Shown: in pieces, positions 52,801 through 57,157 of the stretch
Layout of the letters: every line of letters begins with the position of its first letter
Numbering within the stretch: the stretch's first letter is position 1
DNA from: Ignavibacteria bacterium
Lineage (GTDB): Bacteria; Bacteroidota; Ignavibacteria; Tepidaquicellales; OLB5
DNA: 64,000 nucleotides
Direction: 5' to 3'
Assembly: GCA_019912545.1 (NCBI GenBank)
Contig: JAIOIK010000143.1
Span: 31,830-95,829 of the forward strand
Translations under genes and position numbers: made by a program
Notes under the pieces: model-generated
Told to the model about the DNA's origin: nothing
What the model saw: only the letters and a program-made list of their open reading frames with translations
Database searches by the model: none

Positions 52801-54873
52801 TCAAAAATTAAACTCATAACTTACTTTAAAATATCTTCCTGTATTTTCAAGGCGGTCTCCGAATAAATTCAGCACCAGATATACATTGCTTCCCCCAAAG
52901 AACTGGTATTGTACCATAGTATTCCACAAAGCACGTCTTAAATAAGTATCCCTCTGGAAATAGGTTCTTAAAAACAGTTTGTCGAGTATTTTGTAATCCA
53001 GTTTCAAACTATATATTGTTCGTTTCACATCCGGTTCCTGTACGTAATTAATATTTCCAACCAGTCTCAGCTTGCCCAGAAACGAAAGATCTATACTGGC
53101 ATACGGATTCAACAGATAGTGGCCAAAATATTTGCCGCCATAAAACCCTCCGGATATCGAATGGCTGCCATAGACTACCTTGAAATTATTATCTGAAAGG
53201 ATATTGGAATGCGTTATCCTCTCATCAAATTCATTCACATCATTAGGCCTGTCATAGCTGATGTTATGAAAGAAACTAAGCCACCCGGTAACCTTGTAGA
53301 AAAGATTAACATTTGCCCCATTTTGATAGTTAAACCCATCTGAAAGCCTGTGAGCGCGGTAGTAACCGCCGCTGATATTGATAGTTGGGAAATATTTTGA
53401 ATTCTTAATAAACTCATACCCGCCGCTGGCGCTGATCTCATCGTAATCATTTCCGTAATTATTAAACAAAGTAGTTGCCTGAAAATTAGAATCATACCTC
53501 GCATAATACGCATCCATATAAGGGCCGCCATTACTGTTTTGCTCAAAGAATAAGTACGCATTGTATAAATTCGCAGTTGTGCTATCATTATTGAAGCTTT
53601 TTGCAAATTGCGGTATAAACCAGAACCTTGAAGGCAGTTTTATCCTGGCATCAACATTCACTACGGTTTCTTTGAAATTGTTCAATGTATCACGGGTGTG
53701 AACAACAAGGCCGCCTATGTTAAAATTTGTGAAATTAAATTTTGGCCTGACCGCGATAAATTTCTTTTTAGATCCGGGAGCGAACTGAGTGGTGTCTTCC
53801 TGTACATAAACTGCGCCAAGCTTAAATTTATCGCTTCTGTATGTGTAGTTAAAGCCGTATTCAATATTCTGAATGGCTCTTGTGTAAAATAGATTTATCG
53901 GAGTGCTGAACAGGTCAAGATCCTTACTGAAAAACGGCCTCTTTTCAGATAGAAAAATAGCCCTTCCATAGAACGAAAACCTGAAGGGGTCCGCTTCTAA
54001 TGTTGATTCATCCGTATGGAAAGTGCTTTTTAGCTTATGTTTATCAAGGCTTACTGCAAACTCGCCTCCGTACCTGAAATCACCCTTAACGCCATTAAAC
54101 TTGTTTGCCATAACATACGGCGTTAAATTAAACCGAAGATTTAGTTTTTCATCAAACGGAGTGGCAAGATCAAACTTGTGCAGGTTCTTCAGGTTAAGAA
54201 GTTCGCTGTTTGGAGAAAGTGAATACCAAAAGTAGTTGTTATCCGGCGTGTATGAAAATAACTGCAGATCAATACCTATTTGTTTTTTGTTCTTGTTTTG
54301 GATCCTGTCAACAGGTATCTTTATTTCAAGCTCAACATAACCGGGCTGGCCTTCTTTAGGTTCGCGGACTATTTTAGATTTGTTCTCCCATTGCCAGTCC
54401 CATTCATATGACTGATTTCTCTGGTTATATACAATTGCATCACGCTGGTTATCCAGAAAACTAACTACAAAAATGTAGCCGTTTTGTCCTTTGTTTTCAA
54501 GGTCAAGTACTATAAAGAATTCATTCTCCTCATCTGTGCTTCTATCCCTTGTCAGTGATTGCCTTATGATCTTTCCCCTGGGCCAGTACTTTATAGCAAT
54601 GTTGATGGCATCTTTGGTTTGCTTGATCATAGCAATAGTGCTGTCGTAATCTTTTGAATCACTCCTGGGTATCATCATATGGAAATCAGTAAATATCCTT
54701 GCATCCTTCCATTCACTTTCTTTTATAATGCCATCAACTTTAAGAGTGGCTGCCTCATCCAATACTTTCTTACCGGTCATACCTTTATCGTTGCCGGCTA
54801 CTTCACTATCGGTTTGAGCAATGGATTGGATAGTTATTGCTATCAGAGCTATTATCAGGAGAGTAATTTTCAT
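52801..54873 (-). CDS. DUF5916-like outer-membrane protein with N-terminal carbohydrate-binding-like domain
   Basis: Signal peptide; DGIIKESEWKDA…; beta-barrel-like aromatic C-terminus ending in F. Confidence 0.75.
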   Translation of the reverse strand: MKITLLIIALIAITIQSIAQTDSEVAGNDKGMTGKKVLDEAATLKVDGIIKESEWKDARIFTDFHMMIPRSDSKDYDSTIAMIKQTKDAINIAIKYWPRGKIIRQSLTRDRSTDEENEFFIVLDLENKGQNGYIFVVSFLDNQRDAIVYNQRNQSYEWDWQWENKSKIVREPKEGQPGYVELEIKIPVDRIQNKNKKQIGIDLQLFSYTPDNNYFWYSLSPNSELLNLKNLHKFDLATPFDEKLNLRFNLTPYVMANKFNGVKGDFRYGGEFAVSLDKHKLKSTFHTDESTLEADPFRFSFYGRAIFLSEKRPFFSKDLDLFSTPINLFYTRAIQNIEYGFNYTYRSDKFKLGAVYVQEDTTQFAPGSKKKFIAVRPKFNFTNFNIGGLVVHTRDTLNNFKETVVNVDARIKLPSRFWFIPQFAKSFNNDSTTANLYNAYLFFEQNSNGGPYMDAYYARYDSNFQATTLFNNYGNDYDEISASGGYEFIKNSKYFPTINISGGYYRAHRLSDGFNYQNGANVNLFYKVTGWLSFFHNISYDRPNDVNEFDERITHSNILSDNNFKVVYGSHSISGGFYGGKYFGHYLLNPYASIDLSFLGKLRLVGNINYVQEPDVKRTIYSLKLDYKILDKLFLRTYFQRDTYLRRALWNTMVQYQFFGGSNVYLVLNLFGDRLENTGRYFKVSYEFNF

Positions 54874-54940
54874 TCGATAAATTAAACTTTTTTTAAGTTA
54901 TATACTTATTTAATATTGCTAATTTATAGAAAAAGAGCTT

Positions 54941-55073
54941 GTGCGATGCCTGCCTCTAAAAATTCCGCCTATGGGTCAAGTATAGGTAACAATTTTAGAG
55001 ACAGACGGCAGCCTACTTTTAACTAAACCGCCTTCACGCTTGAGCCCTCAAAACAAGCGTCGCCCAATCGCAC
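54941..55073. ncRNA. Structured element R1 (candidate ncRNA or structured repeat)
   Basis: GTGCGAT/ATCGCAC closing helix, internal CTCTAAAA/TTTTAGAG, hairpin ACGCTTG-loop-CAAGCGT; conserved with R2. Confidence 0.6.
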
Positions 55074-55227
55074 TGCTCTTATTTCTTTTCCAGAAGGAGA
55101 AAATCCGCAGTTAGTAAATCAAGTACGAATTTTTAATTATGATGTCGAATAACCCGGAATGGTTTAATTTTACACTGGATATTAAGGATTTTTTTTTGTT
55201 TTGGATAAGGGCTGTAAAAATAAAAAT

Positions 55228-55350
55228 GTGCGATACCTGCCCCTGAAACTTACCTGTGAAGAATGATAAATTCAGAGGCAGGCAGCAGCCTACTTTTAAC
55301 TAAACTGCTTGCACGCCTGAGCCCTCACAACAGGCGTCGCCTTATCGCAC
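55228..55350. ncRNA. Structured element R2 (second copy)
   Basis: Same ends and 21-nt GCAGCCTACTTTTAACTAAAC block; hairpin ACGCCTG-loop-CAGGCGT; followed by TTTTTT on +. Confidence 0.6.
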
Positions 55351-55627
55351 TTTTTTATAAAATTTTCGGGCTTTCCCCCCTGCAGAACCTCTAAAATCAA
55401 GTTTCCATTGCCTCGGAATAAGCCTGCTTATATATTTGACTATTTTAAAGATCAAGTGTGACGACAGCTAAAAATACATAAGCGCTTATATAACAAGATA
55501 TATATAAGTCTTAGTCCGGTCAAATCATAAAACAGCATAATCTTAGTTTCCTATTATATGTATTTTTAAGAATATTTCAATTATATTAAGAAAATCTTAA
55601 AAAAATATTCCAAACCCATAGTATGCT

Positions 55628-57157
55628 ATGAAGCAAAATGAAGAGCTTTATGTACTTATTAAATCTCTGAAGAAGAGCGAAAAGAGATACTTCAAGCTGC
55701 ATTCGGGGTTACAAGCAGGAAACAAAAACTATCTCAGACTTTTTGACGAAATTTCTGCGCAAGCTGAAAAAGGGTCAAAATATGACGAAAAGATCATCAA
55801 GCAGAAATTCAAAAACGAAATTTTTGTAAAACAGCTTACTTTTACAAAAAACTACCTTGCAGAGATGATATTCAAAAGTCTGGCAATGTATTACAGCGGC
55901 AGTTCAGTTGATTTTTTGATCTCGCAGCAGATCACAAAGGCGAGAATACTTTATAATAAAGCGCTGTATAAATACTTCTTCAAAGTTACAGGATCAATCA
56001 AGAAAACCTGTATGGAGTATGAACGATTTTCGTTTTACCTCCAGGTGCTTGAAATGGAAAAAGTTGTGATCATCAAAAAGATCTATCCGGATAAAGATGA
56101 GACTGATGTGCTGGATGAAGAAATTAAGATCCTGAATATGATCCGAAATATTACCGAGTATAATTTCATAATATCTCAGCTTGCGAGCCTTTACAGAAAA
56201 AAGGGGAGATTCAGGGAAGAATCGCAGGCCGAGCTTCTTGAGAAGATCAATGAAAGATACATAATGATATCCGAAGACAAGGCGCTATCAGATATTGCCA
56301 GAGAGAGATATTACTTCATACTTCAGCTTCTGGCAGATCTTCAGGGTAATAATAAGCAGATATATACATATGCTGTTAAGCGGTTTGAAATAATTAACAA
56401 TAATCCAAAGCCATTCAAAGATCAAAGTTTTAATTATTGGCAGGATATCATCATGTACATACTTCTCCACCTGCTGAAAAGTAACGATCTAGACTTGTTT
56501 GATAAATACATGAAAATGCTGAGGGAGCACACCGGTAAAACTGAAGCCGAGCAGATAAACCTTTTCCTTATAGAAAGCCTGTTTACATTGTTACAGCTTA
56601 ATAATATTACTCAGATCAGCGAAATAAACACAAAGGTAATCTCAATATTAAATGAGTTGAACAAAAATGAAGGAAAAATTGATTCTAATTTTGAGATACT
56701 TATTTACAACTCCATTGTCAAAGTATACTTCAAAAAAAACATGTTTACTGAGGCCAATAAATACATTAACATACTTCTAAATCACCCGCAGATCAGCGTT
56801 AGGGAAGATGTTGAGCTTTATGCCAAGATCATAAATCTTATAATTCATTTAGAGCTTGGAAATATTGACCTCCTGGAATACCTCATCAAATCAACGTACA
56901 GGTATTTAAGAAACAGGAATAATGTTTACAGGTTCGAAACAATATTAATGAAATTTCTAAGAAAGCTTCCGGGCATTGTAACTAACAGCCAGTTCATCGA
57001 ACTTCTGGAACTTGCAAAAAGAGATATCAATCAGCTTAAAAATGATCCTTTTGAAAAGAACGCAGTGGTTCAGTTCGATTTTTCGACATGGATAGACAGG
57101 AAGATAGCTTCATTACAGCTTGATGGCAGAAATTCAAAGAAACCAATTTATGTTTGA
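55628..57157 (+). CDS. Uncharacterised alpha-helical protein, paralog A
   Basis: LIKSLKKSEKRYFKLHSGLQAGNKNYLRLFDEI; paralog of the 59239-60720 product. Confidence 0.7.
   Translation: MKQNEELYVLIKSLKKSEKRYFKLHSGLQAGNKNYLRLFDEISAQAEKGSKYDEKIIKQKFKNEIFVKQLTFTKNYLAEMIFKSLAMYYSGSSVDFLISQQITKARILYNKALYKYFFKVTGSIKKTCMEYERFSFYLQVLEMEKVVIIKKIYPDKDETDVLDEEIKILNMIRNITEYNFIISQLASLYRKKGRFREESQAELLEKINERYIMISEDKALSDIARERYYFILQLLADLQGNNKQIYTYAVKRFEIINNNPKPFKDQSFNYWQDIIMYILLHLLKSNDLDLFDKYMKMLREHTGKTEAEQINLFLIESLFTLLQLNNITQISEINTKVISILNELNKNEGKIDSNFEILIYNSIVKVYFKKNMFTEANKYINILLNHPQISVREDVELYAKIINLIIHLELGNIDLLEYLIKSTYRYLRNRNNVYRFETILMKFLRKLPGIVTNSQFIELLELAKRDINQLKNDPFEKNAVVQFDFSTWIDRKIASLQLDGRNSKKPIYV

Follow-up and report, generated by a model that had tools for sequence, protein, structure and literature searches.

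Within a window of 64,000 nt from the genome of a little-studied member of the Ignavibacteria (the whole stretch of DNA that we analysed), we observe two tandem copies, R1 and R2, of an RNA that folds into a four-way junction; its loops are conserved and its stems show compensatory changes. In our best reading, they represent a new, lineage-restricted structured RNA family that is absent from Rfam and of a familiar kind, a structured leader or small RNA. Because relatives keep the fold and the place of the gene-nearest copy as its letters change, the element is probably used as RNA, most likely in controlling the neighboring gene, here called fam1. The explanation that we favor, at a probability of roughly 0.45, is that R1, with R2 in tandem, is a minus-strand RNA that lies within the 5′ leader of fam1 transcripts and acts in cis on fam1 output.

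Fold of R1 and R2

The two copies and their parts are located as follows.

54934..55079, minus: R1 RNA, the complete four-way junction with its outer closing helix (folding and covariation; covariance-model match to the minus strand, 169 bits)
55075-55079 with 54934-54938, minus: R1 P1, outer part
55067-55073 with 54941-54947, minus: R1 P1, inner part
55036..55060, minus: R1 P2 hairpin, 7 bp (ACGCUUG/CAAGCGU) with an 11-nt loop, UUUUGAGGGCU
55007..55032, minus: R1 P3 hairpin, 9 bp with G-U pairs that exist on the minus strand only, 8-nt loop
54948..55006, minus: R1 P4, stem of 14 bp, inner stem CCUAU/AUAGG, conserved loop UUGACCC (R1 type)
55222..55356, minus: R2 RNA, the tandem second copy, with its core at 55228-55350 (covariance model, 127 bits)

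Read 5′ to 3′ on the minus strand, the element consists of P1 (outer AGAGC, inner GUGCGAU), P2 (ACGCYUG), P3, P4, and the returning 3′ arms of P1. A U-run follows P1 in all copies except that of one relative, G014. The 11-nt loop of P2 contains GAGGGCU, and GAGGGCUCA of this hairpin does not vary across the 16 copies that we aligned. R1 and R2 align end to end with a mean column identity of 84% and have in common a 21-nt block, the ACGCYTG hairpin, and the GTGCGAT/ATCGCAC closing arms. The P4 of R2 is shorter than that of R1 and lacks the UUGACCC loop, while its outer closing helix is an A-tract/U-tract.

When compared to dinucleotide shuffles, R1 folds with z-scores of -4.87 on the minus strand and -3.78 on the plus strand, and R2 with -8.30 and -5.63, respectively. 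The minus strand folds better because P3, with its G-U pairs, forms only there. The initial annotation of this DNA had folded the plus strand, which was the wrong one. Its coordinates and letters for R1 (54941-55073) and R2 (55228-55350) are correct, and three of its structural observations are real: the T-A to C-G compensatory change in P2, the stem that diverges while remaining paired (P4), and the outer closing helix that differs between copies. The 21-nt block is shared by R1 and R2 as described there, but most of it belongs to P3, a third hairpin, of which it supplies one arm and the loop, and whose G-U pairs exist on the minus strand alone.

Covariation and the strand under selection

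The named structure comprises 47 pairs, over which 95.8% of cells are paired in the alignment of 16 copies. The covariation first noted between R1 and R2 persists in this wider alignment, with both-sided changes in 14/47 pairs, where shuffles give 4.9 and slid controls 2-6 (0/500 shuffles as high), and RNAalifold, unaided, returns essentially the same fold. In the minus-strand reading, the 16 copies hold 73 G-U cells in 22 columns versus 3 A-C cells in 2 columns; as cells are sequences and not independent events, the column figure is the safer of the two. Since G-U pairs in RNA and its complement A-C does not, this asymmetry indicates that selection acts on the minus-strand RNA and not on DNA hairpins of the attC, REP, or MITE type. 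The earlier suggestion of selection on RNA or single-strand structure thus gains support, and the strand test takes it further, to the RNA of one strand.

The same bias bears on whether this stretch might encode protein on either strand and be RNA-like in appearance only. A plus-strand frame is open across part of many copies, but frame shifts of 1-2 nt occur in the copy of G014 and in two further copies of the close relative G006 (G006_c and G006_d), a shared start is not seen, and the strand-specific G-U bias would be left without explanation. We regard a coding origin as extremely improbable.

Distribution and novelty

An Rfam 15 search of the window gave no matches at gathering thresholds, and even at E<=10 the region 54874-55627 returned just three unrelated matches (E 0.4-7.9, each well short of its threshold), in agreement with the initial annotation, which could not place the element in a known family. 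A narrow search of the literature found no description of the R1/R2 family. A DNA search at E<=0.01 matched 14 of 41 related genomes. Of these, 13 belong to the same family as the window, and the match in the 14th is a fragment of 27 nt. With a covariance model, we find the RNA in 13/16 genomes of this one Ignavibacteria family, in 0/30 genomes of the sister family, and, under stricter filters, in no genome beyond those 13 among 299 of the class; upstream of fam1 in the sister family, the model did not find it with filters off. When 85,488 species were scanned for an exact pattern, only the same lineage came up, in MAGs named Ignavibacteria or Chlorobi/Chlorobiota; the same pattern had no match in viral contigs, and distant blastn had none in plasmids; diverged relatives would escape the pattern, blastn, and covariance-model searches as run. 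The initial annotation had looked to many hits near consistent genes as the mark of a new class of RNA: the consistent neighbor, fam1, is there, whereas the family is narrow rather than widespread. The lineage-restricted candidates Chlorobi-1, SAM-Chlorobi, and Lnt (PMC2864571) were put forward on the same kind of evidence, namely covariation, a narrow clade, and an intergenic place; R1/R2 differ in matching no Rfam model, including such motifs as Rfam holds.

A candidate outside this set was found in G013, where the region upstream of a fam1 paralogue (L086 4960-5070, G013:C11) adopts a three-way-junction fold (z -5.05) without P2 that has the loop letters CCATAGGCAA and AGACAGGCA in common with R1. 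Its plain-alignment score was equalled in 245/1000 shuffles and its covariance-model E is 0.22, and therefore we do not claim homology; including the sequence in the alignment also caused P1 to become misplaced. Elsewhere in G013 (L087, G013:C45), short tandem repeats of the AATTTGGGAAAGAGAGTACCGGAG type lie shortly before the fam1 paralogue.

Copy number ranges from 1 to 4 per genome, with R1 kept at its orthologous place. R2 is found in two species, this genome and G006, and the latter also carries the diverged copies c and d. These extra copies in two related species are what might be expected of a low-copy dispersing element, similar to a MITE or REP, whose palindromic ends and hairpins would reflect its mode of moving. 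Inverted-repeat-like flanks at some loci point the same way (permutation p 0.03, inconsistent between genomes), as does one strain contig of G006 (L119, G006:C88, ~2797-2800), which matches another (L059, G006:C232) up to a breakpoint in the P1 3′ arm of copy c. We read this breakpoint as a probable deletion, since, by eye, a remnant similar to the end of the neighboring regulator gene is still present. Like integron attC sites and REP/MITE elements, the R1/R2 family is short, imperfectly palindromic, and sometimes located right after a stop codon. Unlike them, it is selected as RNA of one strand, as the 73:3 G-U asymmetry suggests, and most genomes have one copy at one orthologous place. No integrase or transposase was seen among the flanking genes, with gene families scanned for seven window proteins, target duplications were not seen, and the viral and plasmid searches were negative. 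The possibility of a MITE, raised at the outset, did not apply, as in 13 genomes the copies occupy the same orthologous place and are not scattered with a transposase, and we consider a dispersing element improbable.

Gene neighborhood and promoter-like boxes

The genes and candidate promoter elements around the RNA are as follows.

52801..54873, minus: fam1, 690 aa, probable outer-membrane protein, directly downstream of R1 (synteny, 13 genomes)
55100..55133, minus: P0, a hairpin of variable length between the box and P1 of R1, which folds in most, not all, orthologues
55141..55166, minus: promoter-like box TAAACCATT-N13-CATC (AAACC-N16-CATC) upstream of R1, putative promoter
55469..55496, minus: weak housekeeping-type promoter candidate TTG-N17-TATTTTTA with palindrome ATAAGCGCTTAT, upstream of R2
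55628..57157, plus: divergent gene of 509 aa with a distant relationship to the BT_2802 (RusR) family (NF058569, E 2.3e-42, below the curated cut-off)

In 13/13 genomes from two genera, fam1 is immediately preceded by an R1-type copy on its own strand, the arrangement expected of a cis-acting leader; copies c and d do not share it. fam1 has no Pfam, NCBIfam, or PDB match, and its AlphaFold model (mean pLDDT 41) is beta-rich in the C-terminal part only; this part and a signal-like start make fam1 a probable outer-membrane protein. One genome, G004, retains fam1 without the RNA, and thus, the RNA is not strictly required by fam1. A conserved AT-rich block just 5′ of the fam1 ATG is also kept in G004 and could be a separate fam1 promoter.

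Beyond the RNA, most genomes have a secreted-protein gene and a divergent BT_2802/RusR-related gene, and the two genomes with the tandem R2 have an extra RusR-like gene. The 509-aa gene of the window is a possible regulator; its match is distant and under the curated cut-off, so that we infer, rather than assign, this function. BT2802 is RusR itself. In Bacteroides thetaiotaomicron, RusR governs ribose use (PMC12596196). RusR-like genes recur in this genome (55628-57157, 59239-60720, and the G000 loci L122-L124), and several adjoin, often divergently, genes with type IX secretion tails, in what looks like a set of local regulator-and-cargo pairs. The other RusR-like loci of this genome have no strong copy of the RNA (best E 0.032).

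The AAACC-N16-CATC box is present in 13/13 R1 orthologues at 85-129 nt before P1, with exact spacing and a variable spacer. We take it to resemble ECF-type promoters and infer that it is one. The box at 55141..55166 is the sole exact match in the window, and its longer form the sole exact match in the genome; with 2 mismatches allowed, the window contains 11 matches versus 8.55 expected, and in the absence of enrichment we infer no regulon. By eye, G004 has a degenerate box, AAATC-N16-CATC. A similar box, GAAACYTT..CGT, lies 83-117 nt before the ATG of fam1 orthologues in the sister family (6/16 loci, 0.07 expected from shuffles; e.g., L101, L104, L105, L108, L109, and L116). As the sister family lacks the RNA, it appears that the RNA has what would be an older fam1 promoter on one side and fam1 on the other. 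We also considered pairing over a long distance between the box and the sequence ahead of the fam1 ATG, and set it aside (permutation p 0.03, inconsistent between genomes).

Further upstream, six relatives have a better version of the housekeeping-type candidate found before R2, TTG-N19-TAnnTTTG, beside the palindrome ATAAGCAGTTAT; this is a promoter of the Bacteroidota type (consensus in PMC6847099). Between the secreted-protein gene and the RNA, we also observe in relatives a strongly conserved, promoter-like block of ~50 nt (ATACATAAGCAGTTATATTGTTTATTATATAAAAATTTATATCTTTGTA) and a recurring GTCACAC motif (both, e.g., in L051, L052, L054, and L055).

Possible roles of the RNA

In the leader model, transcription would start at the box, proceed through the RNA, and continue into fam1: R1 would sit between the box and the fam1 start codon, the latter ~60-150 nt further on, and the leader of this genome would carry two units in tandem. 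The RNA would then control fam1. Because a U-run follows the closed P1 in nearly all copies, the folded junction could end transcription, and attenuation is conceivable, with termination at the closed P1 and U-run unless the conserved loops bind something. The invariable linkage to fam1, the fixed-spacing box, the related box of the sister family, the G-U asymmetry, and the U-run together suggest a leader, as does G014, in which the nearest gene upstream of the RNA is divergent and the promoter must therefore be near the RNA. Against a leader are the loss of the RNA in G004, the location of copies c and d away from fam1, the missing U-run in G014, and a local scan for terminator-like hairpins, limited to loops of 3-8 nt, that flagged none. 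The AT-rich block, if a separate promoter, would also count against it.

The main rival of the cis-acting leader is a free-standing small RNA (or protein-binding RNA) that acts in trans, equipped with a promoter box of its own, closed by P1, and terminating at the U-run, and with fam1 a mere neighbor; its working surfaces would be the conserved loops GAGGGCU and UUGACCC. The self-contained build of the unit fits this possibility, as its 5′ and 3′ ends pair and the U-run comes next in nearly all copies. The 5′ side (box and P0) is conserved and the sequence just past the U-run is variable, some copies lie away from fam1, and G004, which has lost the RNA, still keeps the fam1-proximal block. A trans-acting RNA is, however, at odds with the strict linkage of every R1 locus to fam1 and with the copy of G014, which has no U-run. 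Copies c and d lack the AAACC-N16-CATC box, so that as small RNAs they would depend on read-through from the preceding gene. We judge this reading to be possible, with the odds against it.

Copies c and d would be best explained differently, by an RNA element of transcript ends or gene junctions. Such an element would recur after secreted-protein genes, act in the formation of 3′ ends, in stability, or in processing, and function at any site that it occupies. Both copies begin ~8-22 nt past the stop codon of a gene whose secreted product carries a type IX secretion tail, R1 itself lies downstream of a secreted-protein gene in most genomes, and P1 is followed by the U-run. The R1-only genomes do not fit such a role, however, as the RNA there begins 268-533 nt past the gene before it and comes with a conserved box of its own, and terminators and stability hairpins are not known to conserve loops and a four-way junction. 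As an account of the whole family, we find a transcript-end element unlikely.

Returning to the cis-acting leader, the tandem copies upstream of one gene resemble, by analogy, known tandem leader RNAs. R1/R2 share with riboswitches and other cis-regulatory leaders (in tandem form, those for c-di-GMP and glycine) a compact junction, conserved loops, a same-strand position upstream of one gene, the occurrence in tandem, and a closing P1 beside a U-run. They differ in having no known ligand, metabolic theme, or Rfam match, in being confined to one bacterial family with, as a rule, one locus per genome, and in that some copies are not 5′ of the same gene. A more specific and rather unlikely version of the leader model would make R1/R2 leader RNAs of a new class that sense a ligand or a protein and are used singly or in tandem. 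In Ignavibacteria, they would gate a gene for an envelope protein that is placed behind the promoter of an alternative sigma factor, and the closed four-way junction would be the terminator.

R1/R2 add a well-supported structured RNA outside Rfam, with its strand, fold, neighbors, and likely promoter defined, to the Ignavibacteria, a group for which we found few regulatory RNAs described. Natural variants of the locus, including G004 without the RNA, R2 without the P4 loop, and the tandem units of some genomes, make a direct test of function practical.
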